This document shows positions 7,174-39,821 of a stretch of 64,000 nucleotides of DNA, piece by piece. The number at the start of each line of letters is the position of its first letter. Position 1 is the first letter of the stretch. The stretch is from Catenuloplanes indicus (GTDB lineage Bacteria > Actinomycetota > Actinomycetes > Mycobacteriales > Micromonosporaceae): assembly GCF_030813715.1 (NCBI RefSeq), contig NZ_JAUSUZ010000001.1, positions 4,030,001 to 4,094,000 on the forward strand, written 5' to 3'. The notes under the pieces were generated by a model, which was not told the origin of the DNA, made no database searches, and saw nothing but the letters and a program-made list of their open reading frames with translations. The translations under genes were made by a program, and so were the position numbers.

Positions 7174-8055
7174 TCAGCGCACGGTCACCGAGTCTCGGAT
7201 CCCGGCGAACAGGTCCGTCTCCGGCGCGGTGCTGTCGACCAGCGACCGGGCCAGCTCGAAGTCCTCGGTCGGCCACACCTTGAGCTGGAGTTCGAGCGGC
7301 ACCTGGAACCAGAAGCCGTCCGGGTCGACCTGGGTGGCGTGTGCCCGGAGCGCGTCGTCCCGGACGTGGAAGTACTCGCCGCACGGCACCCGCGTGGTGA
7401 TCTTGGCGCCGCGGTCACGGCTCTCGTCCCACTTCTCGATCCACTCGGTGTACGGCGAGGTCAGGCCCGCGGCCAACATCGCCTCGTGCAGCGCGAGCAC
7501 GCGGTCCTTGGAGAAGCCGGAGTTGTAGTACAGCTTCAGCGGCTGCCACGGCTCACCGGCGGTCGGGAACCGGTCCGGGTCGCCGGCCGCCTCGAACGCG
7601 GCCACCGACACCTTGTGCGTCATGATGTGGTCCGGGTGCGGGTAACCGCCGTTCTCGTCGTACGTGGTGATCACATGCGGGCGGAACTCGCGGATCAGCT
7701 TGACCAGCGGCTCCGCGGCCACCTCCGGGTCCATCAGGCCGAAGCAGCCGTCCGGCAGCGGCGGCAGTGGGTCACCCTCGGGCAGACCGGAGTCGACGTA
7801 GCCCAGCCAGGCCTGCCGCACGCCGAGGATCTCGCGCGCCGCGTCCATCTCCCGGCGCCGGATGTTCGCGATGTCCGCCCACACCTCCGGCCGGTCCAGC
7901 TTGGGGTTCAGCACGCTGCCGCGCTCCCCGCCGGTACAGGTGACCACCAGCACGGAGACGCCTTCCGCGACGTACTTCGCACTCGACGCGGCGCCCTTGC
8001 TTGACTCGTCGTCGGGGTGTGCGTGCACCGCCATCAGACGCAACTGCTCAGCCAA
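7174..8055 (-). CDS. mca: Mycothiol S-conjugate amidase
   Basis: A 293-residue member of the LmbE/PIG-L zinc deacetylase family, closest to Mca, which cleaves mycothiol S-conjugates during detoxification in the cytoplasm. The zinc motif AHPDDE lies at 12-17 (H13, D15, D16), and HPDH in [12 protein letters not shown] supplies the second histidine. [11 protein letters not shown] is also typical. I place the start at a TTG at 8055, giving (M)[16 protein letters not shown]: this matches the family N-terminus and has GGGAGA upstream. An ATG twelve codons earlier would add an atypical extension. The head-to-head neighbour encodes a DUF4307 protein, an arrangement also known in mycobacteria. Confidence 0.92.
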
Positions 8056-33298: not shown

Positions 33299-33844
33299 TT
33301 ATCGGGAGAGCCTGGCGAGGAGGCCGGCAGCCGTGATTGCTGCCACTAAGCCACCGATCGCAAACGCTACGTGACTGCCGAGCGTCAGGCGGCCGACCGC
33401 GGCGAGCGCCATGACGAGCACGACCGCCGATCCGATCACCACCGCGACCAGCCGAATCACCCATCCGGTGACAGCCTCGGAGCGGATCGCGCCGTCGAAC
33501 GGCAGGCAGGCCGCCAGCGCGGCCAGGCCGTGGCCCGCGTAGAGCAGGCTGCCGAGCGCGAGCACCCGCCAGATCGAGACCGACTCACCATACGCGGCGG
33601 TGCCGATCAGCCAGAGCGCGATGACCGCGAGCGCCAGGATCACCGGCATGGTGCCGCGCGGCCGCAGCGCCGGGAGGATCGCCAGCACGATCATCGCGCC
33701 GGCCACGCGCAGATCGAGGAAATCGGCCGGCAGTGCCACCAGCAGCGCGGCCAGGCCGGCGGCGGCCACCGCAAGACGGACCAGGATCGGCGTGGGTCCG
33801 GCACGCCGGACCGCGTTGCGCAGCGCGAGGTAGCGGGCCCTCAC
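33299..33844 (-). CDS. Membrane protein at the end of the MoxR-DUF58 operon
   Basis: A 181-residue protein with about six membrane segments and no soluble domain (PILVRLAVAAAGLAALLVAL; VSIWRVLALGSLLYAGHGLA). No family is recognised. Its GTG start (33844) overlaps the DUF58 stop as GTGA, so it is translationally coupled and probably belongs to the same membrane complex. Confidence 0.75.
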   Translation of the reverse strand: MRARYLALRNAVRRAGPTPILVRLAVAAAGLAALLVALPADFLDLRVAGAMIVLAILPALRPRGTMPVILALAVIALWLIGTAAYGESVSIWRVLALGSLLYAGHGLAALAACLPFDGAIRSEAVTGWVIRLVAVVIGSAVVLVMALAAVGRLTLGSHVAFAIGGLVAAITAAGLLARLSR

Positions 33845-35211
33845 CGCAGGCCCGCCCGGGGGGCGCCGGCGAACCGGGCGATGTCCCGCAGCACCAGGTC
33901 CAGGCTGCCGGCGCCGGCCCAGCTCACCACCGGCACACCGTGCTCTCGCAGTCGGCCCAGCGTGTTCTCCCGCTCCAGCCGCCACAGGCGCAGCGCCTGC
34001 TCGACCCACGGGCTGCCGCCGGGCAGCGACAGTCCGGCGCTCGGCAGCGTGTCGACCGCGACCACGTACCGGCCGGAGCGGGCCAGCCGGGCCAGCATCT
34101 CGGCCGCGCCCGGTTCCAGCAGCGGCGTCAGCACCACGACCAGCGCGTTCGACGAGACCAGGTGTGCGGCGACCGGGTCGGCGCCGTTACCGGCGCTGCC
34201 CTGCTGCCGCACCTCCAGCAGCCACTCCAGCACGGTCAGGTACTGCCGGCGGCCCGCCGCGGCGCGGGGTCGGCGGGCGGCCGGGCCGTACTCCAGCAGC
34301 GAGACCCGGTCGCCGCGGTGCAAGTAGTGCTCCGCGATCGCGGCTGCGGCCCGGACCGTGGTGTCGAGTACGGAGGCACCGCCGTCCACGCCGCCGGAGT
34401 TGCCGGTCTCGGCCGTCACGTCGAGCAGCAGCGCCACCTCGGCGTCCCGGTCGGAGAGCGTGGCGGCCACGTGCAGCTCACCGGCGCGCAGCGACACCCG
34501 CCAGTCGATGCGCCGCAGCCGGTCGCCGGGCCCGAACTTGCGGACACCGGCCAGCTCGCCGCTCTGGCCGGGGCGCCGGGAACGGTGGCCGCCGACCAGG
34601 CCGGCCGCGTTCGGCATCGCGTCGACCGCCTGGAACGGCTCGGTACGCGGGTAGACCGCGATCCGGGCCGGGCGCAGCACCACCGGCGCGGACGTGAACA
34701 GCCCGTCGCAGGCGGCCGCGGCGGCCGCGATCGGGCCGAGGTCGTGGCGGCCCCAGCGCAACCCGCGGCCCTCCAGCGCGATCAGGCCGGTCCGGCCCGC
34801 GTCCACGGCCAGGCCCTGCGGCCGGTCCGCCGCGTCCAGGCGCAGCCACCGCGACCGGCGCACCCGGACCAGCACCAGGTCGTAGCGGACGTGATCCCGG
34901 TTGATCACTTCGAGCTCGGCGAGGACGTCGCCGCCCTCCACCCGGTTGACCGCCTCCAGCGTGAGCGCCAGGTCCGGCGCCGCGGCCGGGCGGCGGCGCA
35001 GCGAGACCGCGGTCCCGATCACGAACGGCGTGGCCAGCAACACCACATCGGTACGGCCGAGCACCACGCCGATCACCAGCAGCAGACCGGCCAGCGTGAT
35101 CGCGCGGCTGAGCGCCCGGGTCGGCACCCACACCGGCGGGGCCTCCGCCTCGGGAAGCACCGGTTCCGCGACCGCCGCCAGCGGCGGCACCGCGGGACGC
35201 AGAGAGCTCAT
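33841..35211 (-). CDS. DUF58 family protein, MoxR-associated
   Basis: A 456-residue protein: two membrane segments near the N-terminus (about 30-75), then a long soluble part with the DUF58 core (PGDRLRRIDWRVSLRAGELH near 235) and a von Willebrand A-like fold with a metal-site pattern (VALLLDVTAETGNSGG). DUF58 proteins are usual partners of MoxR AAA ATPases. The start is ATG at 35211 behind GGAGGAGG. The Shine-Dalgarno and the upstream overlap are both provided by a 77-bp repeat unit. Confidence 0.82.
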   Translation of the reverse strand: MSSLRPAVPPLAAVAEPVLPEAEAPPVWVPTRALSRAITLAGLLLVIGVVLGRTDVVLLATPFVIGTAVSLRRRPAAAPDLALTLEAVNRVEGGDVLAELEVINRDHVRYDLVLVRVRRSRWLRLDAADRPQGLAVDAGRTGLIALEGRGLRWGRHDLGPIAAAAAACDGLFTSAPVVLRPARIAVYPRTEPFQAVDAMPNAAGLVGGHRSRRPGQSGELAGVRKFGPGDRLRRIDWRVSLRAGELHVAATLSDRDAEVALLLDVTAETGNSGGVDGGASVLDTTVRAAAAIAEHYLHRGDRVSLLEYGPAARRPRAAAGRRQYLTVLEWLLEVRQQGSAGNGADPVAAHLVSSNALVVVLTPLLEPGAAEMLARLARSGRYVVAVDTLPSAGLSLPGGSPWVEQALRLWRLERENTLGRLREHGVPVVSWAGAGSLDLVLRDIARFAGAPRAGLR

Positions 35212-35288
35212 GCCGCCTCCTCCGCTTCGCTCCCCCGGCGACATTCGTCGAGCACTGAGCCAGCAGATTCGCTCGCAAGCTCGCTCAT
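35208..35288 (-). CDS. Repeat-encoded micro-ORF, second copy
   Basis: A 26-residue ORF, MSELASESAGSVLDECRRGS followed by EAEEAA. It starts at 35288, overlapping the stop of the identical upstream copy by ATGA; its own TGA overlaps the ATG of the DUF58 gene. GGAGGAGG precedes the next start. It may only relay ribosomes, or may be a real peptide with one cysteine. Confidence 0.45.
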   Translation of the reverse strand: MSELASESAGSVLDECRRGSEAEEAA

Positions 35289-35364
35289 GCCGCCTCCTCC
35301 GCTTCGCTCCCCCGGCGACATTCGTCGAGCACTGAGCCAGCAGATTCGCTCGCAAGCTCGCTCA
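35209..35364 (-). repeat. Two tandem 77-bp repeats between moxR and the DUF58 gene
   Basis: Copies begin with cat at 35209, 35286 and (partial, after the second full unit) 35363, giving a strict 77-bp period. The two full units are identical over their whole length. Because 77 is not a multiple of three, each unit ends with TGA overlapping the next ATG, so the chain of coupled starts survives any number of units. Confidence 0.9.
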
Positions 35365-35365
35365 T
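35285..35365 (-). CDS. Repeat-encoded micro-ORF, first copy
   Basis: Identical in sequence to the copy at 35208-35288. Its ATG (35365) overlaps the MoxR stop codon, and its stop overlaps the ATG of the second copy. The MoxR stop and the DUF58 start are thus linked through two translated repeats. Confidence 0.45.
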   Translation of the reverse strand: MSELASESAGSVLDECRRGSEAEEAA

Positions 35366-36354
35366 GCCGCGTACGTCGGCAGCGCGCCGCTGGCCGGGGC
35401 CGGGACCGCGTCGAGCACCTCGGAGACCACGAACGCCGGGTCGACCCGGCGCAGCCACATCTCCGGCCGCAGCGTGATCCGGTGGGTCAGCGCCGGTGCC
35501 GCGACCTCCTTGACGTCCTCCGGGACCACGAAGTCGCGGCCGGCCAGCGCGGCCCGCGCGCGGGACAGCAGCAGCAGCGCCAGCGAGCCGCGCGGGGACG
35601 CACCGACCAGCACGGACGGGTGCTCCCGGGTGGCCGCGGCGAGCGCCACGATGTACCGGCCGATCGAGTCCTCGACCGTGACCTGCTCCAGGCCGGCCTG
35701 CATGCGCAGCAGCGTCTCCGCGTTCACCACCGGGGCGATCTCGGCCTCCTCACGGCGGCGGTGGATGCGGCGGCGCAGCACCTCCCACTCCTCCTCGTGG
35801 CTGGGGTAGCCGAACGAGACGCGCAGCAGGAACCGGTCCAGCTGCGCCTCGGGGAGCGGGTACGTGCCCTCGTACTCGATCGGGTTCGCGGTGGCGAGCA
35901 CGTGGAACGGCGCGTCCAGCCGGTACGTGACGCCCTCCACCGACACCTGCTTCTCCTGCATCGCCTCCAGCAGTGCGGCCTGCGTCTTCGGTGGCGTCCG
36001 GTTGATCTCGTCGGCGAGCAGCAGGTTCGTGAAGATCGGGCCGGACCGGAAGGTGAAGTCGTGCCGGCTCTGGTCGTAGAGGAACGAGCCGGTCACGTCC
36101 GCGGGCAGCAGGTCCGGCGTGAACTGGAGGCGGCGGAAGTCCAGCCCGAGCGCCTGCGCGAAGCTGCGCGCGGTCAGCGTCTTGCCCAACCCGGGCAGGT
36201 CCTCCAGCAGCACGTGCCCACCGGCCAGAATGCCGGCCAGCACCAGCTCCAGCGGCTCCCGCTTGCCGACCACCACCGTGCCGACCGCGTCCAGCACGGT
36301 CCGCGCGAGCGCACCCACCTCGTACGGCGGGAGGGGCTCCGGCATGTCAGTCAT
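35362..36354 (-). CDS. MoxR-type AAA+ ATPase
   Basis: A 330-residue MoxR ATPase: Walker A in LLEDLPGLGKT, Walker B in LLLADEINRTPPKTQAALLE, sensor 1 in VLATANPIEYEGTYPLPEAQ and a C-terminal lid with GASPRGSLALLLLSRA. MoxR proteins act with DUF58/VWA partners in assembling or activating other proteins, often at the envelope. The start ATG (36354) overlaps the stop of the upstream membrane-protein gene (ATGA). Confidence 0.9.
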   Translation of the reverse strand: MTDMPEPLPPYEVGALARTVLDAVGTVVVGKREPLELVLAGILAGGHVLLEDLPGLGKTLTARSFAQALGLDFRRLQFTPDLLPADVTGSFLYDQSRHDFTFRSGPIFTNLLLADEINRTPPKTQAALLEAMQEKQVSVEGVTYRLDAPFHVLATANPIEYEGTYPLPEAQLDRFLLRVSFGYPSHEEEWEVLRRRIHRRREEAEIAPVVNAETLLRMQAGLEQVTVEDSIGRYIVALAAATREHPSVLVGASPRGSLALLLLSRARAALAGRDFVVPEDVKEVAAPALTHRITLRPEMWLRRVDPAFVVSEVLDAVPAPASGALPTYAA

Positions 36355-36911
36355 AGTTCCTCCAGGCGGGTGACCAGCGACGCGAACTGTCGTGGTTTCG
36401 GTGCGCGCTTCGGCGGCGCGGTCAGCAGCGTCCACAGCGGGTCGCCGAGCAGCTCGCGCGCCCGCCGCTGATCAGACGCGATGGTGACGCCGTGGCGTTG
36501 CCGCAGCCGCTCGTCGGCCAGCTCGCGCAGCGCCGGCACGGTCAGCCGGTGGAACCGGGCCGCGTCCTCGGTGCTCCAGTTGAGCACGCGTTCCCAGCGC
36601 CCGACCGCATGGCGCAGCCCGTCACCGCCGGTGAAGTTGTAGGTGCCGGGCTCCTCGCCGCGGACCACGTGCCGGGCCGGGCGCTCGCCGCGGCCGGGCA
36701 CGCCGACGGACGCGATCACGCGCCGCAGCGTCACCAGGGCCAGGAACGACAGGAAAAGCACCGGTACGGAGACGGTCAGCTCCTCGACGCGCAGCAGCAC
36801 GTAGACGATGCCGGTGCCCAGCCCGGCCAGCAGCGCACCGGTCACCCAGCGCCACCGGCTCTTCCGGGCCGGCCGCTCCTCGGCACCGGCGAACAGGTCG
36901 TCGATGCTCAC
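36351..36911 (-). CDS. Two-pass membrane protein in the MoxR operon
   Basis: A 186-residue protein with two close membrane segments (about 22-62) and a cytoplasmic C-terminal domain (about 75-186) rich in Arg and Glu. No named family is recognised. The GTG start at 36911 overlaps the DUF4129 stop (GTGA), and its own stop overlaps moxR. Confidence 0.75.
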   Translation of the reverse strand: MSIDDLFAGAEERPARKSRWRWVTGALLAGLGTGIVYVLLRVEELTVSVPVLFLSFLALVTLRRVIASVGVPGRGERPARHVVRGEEPGTYNFTGGDGLRHAVGRWERVLNWSTEDAARFHRLTVPALRELADERLRQRHGVTIASDQRRARELLGDPLWTLLTAPPKRAPKPRQFASLVTRLEEL

Positions 36912-39176: not shown

Positions 39177-39821
39177 CTACTTGTCGGTCAGGCAGAGAAC
39201 GTAGTACTCGTTCTCCGGGGCTTCCATCGGCCAGATCATCGAGCCGGACTGGCCCTCCTGGATGAAGTCCATGCAGCGCTCCTCCTCCTGGGCCTGGAGC
39301 AGCGTCAGGTTGTCCACCCGGCCGACGATCAGCGACTGCGCGTCGGCGCTGTTGCAGTCCACGATGCCGACGTCGACCTGACGGTCCGTCTCGCCCTCGG
39401 CCAGCTCCGGGAGCTTGCCGACGCACTCGCCGACCTTCGCGTCCTTGGTCGGGTCGGTCGCCAGCGCGTTCGCCGCCGCACCCACGCCCAGGCCGAGCAC
39501 AACCTTGATCAGGATGCCGACCGCGACCACGCCGACCACGCCGAGGATGCCGGCGAGCTTGCCCTTGCCGCCGCTCTTCTGCGGCTCCTGCGGCGGCGGG
39601 GCGTAGCCCGGCGCGCCGAACGCCGGCGGCTGGCCGGGAGCGCCGAACGCCGGCGGCTGGCCCGGGGCGGCACCGAAGCCGGCCTGGCCGTCCGAAGCGG
39701 CACCGAAGCCCTGCTGCGGCTGGCCCTGCGGCACGCCGGGCGCGGCCGGGGCGCCGAACGCGGGCGCGCCCGGAGTGGAGGGCTGCTGCGGCGGCGGGAA
39801 GCCGGCAGGCTGATCAGTCAC
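39177..39821 (-). CDS. Pro/Gly-rich single-pass membrane protein
   Basis: A 214-residue protein. Residues 1-95 are low complexity (Pro, Gly, Ala, Gln) with a tandem 9-residue repeat, PGQPPAFGA twice. One membrane segment follows (about 100-130, LAGILGVVGVVAVGILIKVV), then an outside domain of about 85 residues containing three cysteines (KVGECVGKL, VDCNSAD, EERCMDF) and one near the C-terminus. It resembles septum-associated or LppU-like actinobacterial proteins. The start is GTG at 39821. Confidence 0.7.
   Translation of the reverse strand: MTDQPAGFPPPQQPSTPGAPAFGAPAAPGVPQGQPQQGFGAASDGQAGFGAAPGQPPAFGAPGQPPAFGAPGYAPPPQEPQKSGGKGKLAGILGVVGVVAVGILIKVVLGLGVGAAANALATDPTKDAKVGECVGKLPELAEGETDRQVDVGIVDCNSADAQSLIVGRVDNLTLLQAQEEERCMDFIQEGQSGSMIWPMEAPENEYYVLCLTDK

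Follow-up and report, generated by a model that had tools for sequence, protein, structure and literature searches.

The 64,000-nucleotide stretch of Catenuloplanes indicus DNA analysed here, referred to as the window, carries on its minus strand an operon transcribed in the order DUF4129-domain gene, a 186-aa gene for which no Pfam match was obtained, moxR and a DUF58 gene (Table 1). The 186-aa gene and moxR meet in an ATGA overlap, and between moxR and the DUF58 gene lie two 77-bp units in tandem, each holding a micro-ORF of 26 codons and a stop; the stop of micro-ORF 2 overlaps in turn the DUF58 start (ATGA, 35211-35208). At its 3′ end each unit reads GGAGGAGGCGGC-ATGA, i.e. GGAGGAGG-CGGC-ATGA. 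Direct reading of the sequence agreed exactly, coordinates included, with the first-pass annotation, which had described two identical 26-codon units chained by ATGA. The pair obtained the highest score (330) among the 17 rows returned by Tandem Repeats Finder for the window, and the first 23 bases of the unit matched twice in the window when up to 3 mismatches were allowed, compared with no match in 100 shuffles. The window also holds, at 39606-39669, a 27-bp tandem repeat of 2.4 copies (89% matches) that lies within predicted ORFs.

Table 1. Features of the moxR operon in the window and of the repeat pair between moxR and the DUF58 gene.
Feature	Position	Strand	Remarks
moxR	35362..36354	-	330 aa, MoxR-type AAA_3, E 2.7e-63
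DUF58 gene	33841..35211	-	456 aa, DUF58 domain, E 4.6e-17
Repeat unit 1, upstream copy	35285..35361	-	77 bp; 100% identical to unit 2; dispersed-family member
Repeat unit 2, downstream copy	35208..35284	-	77 bp; 100% identical to unit 1
Micro-ORF 1, MSELASESAGSVLDECRRGSEAEEAA and stop	35285..35365	-	Start inside moxR stop, ATGA 35365-35362
Micro-ORF 2, same peptide as micro-ORF 1	35208..35288	-	Start overlaps micro-ORF 1 stop
Shine-Dalgarno-like GGAGGAGG in unit 1, ahead of micro-ORF 2 start	35293..35300	-	From sequence
Shine-Dalgarno-like GGAGGAGG in unit 2, ahead of DUF58 start	35216..35223	-	From sequence
GTGA overlap, DUF4129-domain gene / next operon gene	36908..36911	-	Empty in the window; three units in Catenuloplanes japonicus (G002)

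The unit belongs to a dispersed family. A search of the window genome with the unit retrieved a third full-length copy (91% identity), which makes three in all, together with partial relatives. With up to 2 mismatches, the 23-base start was found 15 times in this genome and 122, 30, 16 and 9 times in four other Catenuloplanes genomes; Actinoplanes regularis yielded 130 matches; 31 of 150 genomes of the taxonomic family carried it, and the reversed pattern, used as a control, gave no match in any of these 150. In a sample of the phylum searched with at most 1 mismatch, 2 of 396 genomes matched, the window's own being one of them, and the distribution of the family is thus patchy. The matches listed come from at least about 18 named genera, as counted from record titles, among which are Actinoplanes, Pseudonocardia, Kutzneria, Kibdelosporangium, Amycolatopsis, Saccharothrix, Rhodococcus, Nocardia and Mycobacterium, and from a few records that name no genus. 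It had been proposed to search the genome for the unit at other operon junctions, and many other junctions were indeed found occupied. Further tandem arrays of related units, spaced at 74-75 bases, were seen in the window genome at 5501990-5502086, 79589-79699 and 6297320-6297490 of its contig C1. Spread of the family by phage or plasmid was rejected, as none of the phage and plasmid records matched the unit at E 0.01.

The architecture of the element was compared across 145 copies in at least 120 loci of named genomes (an earlier pass had covered 80 of the 120 loci and 99 copies); the copies were chosen by their exact 5′ start, so that conservation of the 23-base start cannot be inferred from this set. 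In 119 of them the element ORF ends in the overlapping start codon of a further ORF, counted from 18 codons upward, which has 60 codons or more in 93 cases and 18-59 codons in the other 26, where it may be another unit. The remaining 26 copies comprise 20 whose frame continues into a longer ORF, 4 that run off the locus and 2 that do neither. As a control, the frame at offset +2 led in the same way to an ORF of 60 or more codons in 18 of the 145 copies, compared with 93 in the true frame; offset +2 was the sole usable downstream control, since the frame at offset +1 begins with the element's own TGA and is void. The usual length of the element ORF is 26 codons (66 copies) or 25 codons (29 copies). 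On the upstream side, the element TGA is also the stop of an ORF of 60 codons or more in 115 of the 145 copies. The two other frames give 36 and 85, so that the upstream count is weak evidence taken alone, long open frames being common in this GC-rich DNA. At the 3′ end, a GAGG/GGAG ribosome-binding-like motif is present, spaced as in the window units, in 110 of the 119 coupled copies and in 588 of 5328 control RTGA sites, taken from the plus strand of the loci that hold the copies.

A length rule emerges from the tandem arrays. Among 42 distinct spacings between neighbouring starts (up to 3 mismatches; loci L031-L053 and L084-L203, with the window pair excluded), which are not independent since most share a 77-bp or a 74-bp unit, 32 measure 3n+2, and all 32 restart through an overlapping ATGA. 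Another 8 measure 3n, with no stop before the next start in any of them, and such units can thus be read as one protein; the last 2 measure 3n+1, against the rule. Seven different lengths are represented. It had been claimed that the unit length preserves coupling at any copy number, and 40 of the 42 tandem pairs bear this out. Both ways of preserving translation appear to stand together in one array (L037, at 1796209 to about 1796530 of contig C1 in genome G001), where, as read from the sequence, three 75-bp units are fused in frame and a fourth then restarts through ATGA and leads to the ORF behind it. The same tendency is met with between orthologous loci: L003 of the window genome (G000) and L038 of G004 are 93.7% identical over 3069 bases, while their element copies are 75% identical outside a gap, with flanks of 300 bases at 98% and 93%. 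The L038 copy is 12 bases, a multiple of three, shorter than its L003 counterpart, and at a length of 65 (3n+2) it is open and coupled at both ends. The rule would be a mark of selection that favours uninterrupted translation, not a peptide.

At the moxR-DUF58 junction itself, the five Catenuloplanes genomes hold 2, 1, 0, 0 and 0 units, and the change of state that the first-pass annotation had surmised is thereby supported between species. The closest relative by DUF58 identity, G004 (DUF58 94% and moxR 98% identical to the window), shows a bare GCGGC-ATGA-G where the window reads GCGGC-ATGA followed by the two units; G002 and G001 have a bare GTGA; a single unit of the window's repeat family, 65 bp long, is present in G003. 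The empty site of G004 and the filled site of the window genome, as sequences, would fit a precise loss in G004 and a gain in the window genome alike, and the identity of the two window units points to a recent duplication or conversion. In Catenuloplanes japonicus NRRL B-16061 (G002), three units are found at the junction of the DUF4129-domain gene in the same operon. Across the taxonomic family, the junction was read in 90 of the 142 genomes with DUF58: 28 show a direct coupled overlap, 1 (the window) two units, 4 a single chained ORF and 57 no complete chain. Three of the single chained ORFs measure 65, 74 and 80 nt and the fourth is a trivial 14-nt overlap, so that an element-sized unit or array framed by ATGA occurs in only 4 of the 90 junctions read.

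Two of these single units deserve mention. The 74-bp unit of G073, a genome of another genus, is of a subfamily with a peptide starting MSERSER, which has at least 23 matches in that genome among the 40 of 82 candidates that were scored and which, by eye, looks related to the window family; all 8 copies sampled from two genomes, among them the one at the junction, begin at RTGA, and of these 7 have a coupled ORF of 25-26 codons and 1 is fused. The 80-bp unit of G027 (L234) is open and has ATGA at both ends. It is a different, GC-rich dispersed repeat, with at least 42 matches in G027 and at least 30 in G057, and it was rejected as an element of the window's type since the 7 other copies sampled, of 8 with the junction copy, lacked a start codon where the starts align. 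Besides these, at the moxR-DUF58 junction of G125 (L081) a CTGA is followed by roughly 83 inserted bases.

These junctions bear directly on the proposal of the first-pass annotation that repeat expansion could tune the MoxR:DUF58 ratio, considered here as a rheostat whose copy number is selected to set that ratio. Such tuning would be in keeping with identical tandem copies, with a copy number that varies among sister genomes and with a unit length that permits any number of copies. Yet the closest relative has no units at the junction, 85 of the 90 junctions read lack a chained unit (the others being the four of element size and the trivial overlap), the C. japonicus array occupies a different junction of this operon and the family occupies many other gene junctions. 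The unit is a copy of a dispersed family, and the tuning proposal finds no support in these data; we consider it improbable.

Mycobacterial interspersed repetitive units (MIRUs), repeats that are used for typing tuberculosis bacteria and whose original description is reportedly that of Supply and colleagues in 1997, offer the closest parallel. Like them, the window family is a short dispersed repeat in many copies (tens to about 100 bp), it is placed at stop/start overlaps of co-directional genes, it contains a small ORF of the same direction that is, going by sequence, coupled at both ends, and it lies in an overlap that stands empty in relatives (ATGA in G004, GTGA in G002 and G001). According to a 2025 review, MIRUs are apparently mobile and insert at start codons with a coupled ORF at a spacing of -4 nt (PMC12548453). 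At the senX3-regX3 locus (MIRU04/ETR-D), 1 to 7 tandem 77-bp units and, in most species, a 53-bp one are described (PMC2453075); the locus resembles the window in having a 77-bp unit, in tandem and in variable number, between the genes of an operon (PMC2453075, PMC4213456). By our own arithmetic, both reported lengths, 53 and 77, are 3n+2, as in the window family. According to a 2014 paper, the senX3-regX3 MIRUs are confined to M. leprae and the M. tuberculosis complex (PMC4213456), whereas the window family is found in Catenuloplanes and other non-mycobacterial genera; it differs further in that read-through (3n) arrays are also seen. A published MIRU04 flanking primer matched none of 297 genomes from the genus of Mycolicibacterium septicum (L118). 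In our best reading the window family is of the MIRU type, an assignment made by anatomy and unit length and not by sequence comparison. The kind is already known; for the window family no description was found in the literature searched, which for MIRU-like repeats beyond mycobacteria, for the start of the peptide and for the unit DNA gave no match and from which subscription papers were mostly outside the scope.

Two other known arrangements are less close. REP elements, which go with RAYT transposases, are short dispersed repeats without a movement gene of their own. The window family shares these traits but has an open frame and lies within stop/start overlaps, and the conserved palindromic hairpin of REP/RAYT systems has no strong counterpart in it, where covariation is small and stability shows no excess. 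Mobilisation of the REP/RAYT kind was rejected, as the Y1 transposase (PF01797) was matched in none of the five Catenuloplanes genomes at E 1e-5. Ordinary 4-nt ATGA coupling, for its part, is exactly what the unoccupied G004 junction shows, whereas in the window the overlap recurs, with a micro-ORF that carries its own ribosome-binding end set between one copy and the next.

A second alternative is that the unit works at the DNA or RNA level, through an internal promoter or a structured RNA, and not through its ORF. In the 2014 paper, the intergenic MIRUs of senX3-regX3 in M. tuberculosis are said to drive senX3-independent expression of regX3 (PMC4213456), and in the present family conserved DNA blocks are also found at the 3′ end of the element and 3 of the 11 predicted pairs of one alignment show a two-sided change. 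Against this, the window unit folds no better than its shuffles (z -0.23), the covariation terms are small (-0.47 and -0.26) and Rfam gave no match at the gathering score, which together leave a structured RNA with little support; moreover, the length rule and the retention of the frame would go unexplained. We therefore regard a role of this kind as quite unlikely.

Very unlikely, in our opinion, is the alternative that the 26-residue peptide is functional in itself and is kept for that reason. Almost every copy keeps the frame open, as such a function would lead one to expect, yet the pN/pS ratio is about 1 in both families for which it was computed, these tests covering the part beyond MSELASES since all copies were chosen by the conserved start. 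In A. regularis (21 distinct copies) the coding frame gives 1.01, which is lower than one of the other frames (1.20) and not lower than the other (0.85), and in Pseudonocardia (20 copies) it gives 1.13 against 0.88 and 0.74. Neither is the third codon position the most variable one beyond the first eight codons: the values for positions 1, 2 and 3, in bits, are 0.467, 0.392 and 0.416 for the 24 copies of A. regularis, 0.693, 0.709 and 0.471 for the 20 of Pseudonocardia and 0.524, 0.684 and 0.541 for Kutzneria, where only 7 copies were available. The literature search also had no match for the start of the peptide or its DNA. A functional peptide was rejected on the codon-position entropy and the pN/pS ratios, and the variable part of the peptide shows no sign of constraint. 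Judged from their sequences, the copies appear to preserve the end, the ribosome-binding motif and an open frame of suitable length, with no visible conservation of the peptide. That the pair is merely a local duplication of operon sequence, rather than a dispersed or mobile element, would suit two identical tandem units at one place in the window but is refuted by the full and partial copies elsewhere in the genome, in the four sister genomes and in the named genera counted above.

In our view it is highly probable that the unit pair is a member of a dispersed MIRU-type family lodged in an ATGA junction, a tolerated and nearly neutral piece of mobile DNA whose ORF conducts ribosomes onward and in which selection acts on the open frame, on the ends and on the ribosome-binding end, not on the peptide. 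The element consists of an RTGA whose start lies in the upstream stop, a shared 5′ core of 19 bases and a variable middle, followed by a 3′ end that resembles a Shine-Dalgarno site and by a second RTGA. It would enter the 4-base stop/start overlap of an operon with an RTGA remaining at each end, and the downstream gene would still be supplied with ribosomes. Ribosomes that end moxR may restart on micro-ORF 1, then on micro-ORF 2 and finally on the DUF58 gene; we infer from the anatomy that the operon keeps its translational coupling because ribosomes restart along the chain of micro-ORFs. Since the unit length is 3n+2, each tandem copy would add one coupled step, and a stop-free unit of 3n could serve as well through read-through. 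Copies that break the frame would harm the operon and then be lost, which would explain the length rule without any function of the peptide.

Perhaps MIRUs are one branch of a wider class of actinobacterial micro-mobile elements that reside in ATGA overlaps, are rendered harmless by a frame of 3n+2 (restart) or of 3n (read-through), are selected as a conduit for ribosomes and never for their peptide, and are moved by an enzyme that recognises the RTGA and the 19-base core. We put this forward tentatively, as a possibility that we would stop short of calling probable. It would place a clinically familiar typing repeat in a wider setting. In free-living actinomycetes the number of MIRU-type copies can reach a hundred or more, as judged by the 122 starts in one Catenuloplanes genome and the 130 in Actinoplanes regularis, and such harmless hosts would allow the movement of these elements, the passage of ribosomes through them and the effect of copy number on the downstream gene to be studied.

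Finally, two records stand somewhat apart. In Mycobacterium sp. AZCC_0083 (L133, about 7817-7843) the 23-base start is followed directly by ATGA, a minimal form whose ORF has 8 codons (MSELASES and a stop). The 23-base start is also present in a metagenome-assembled genome labelled Phycisphaerales (L181).
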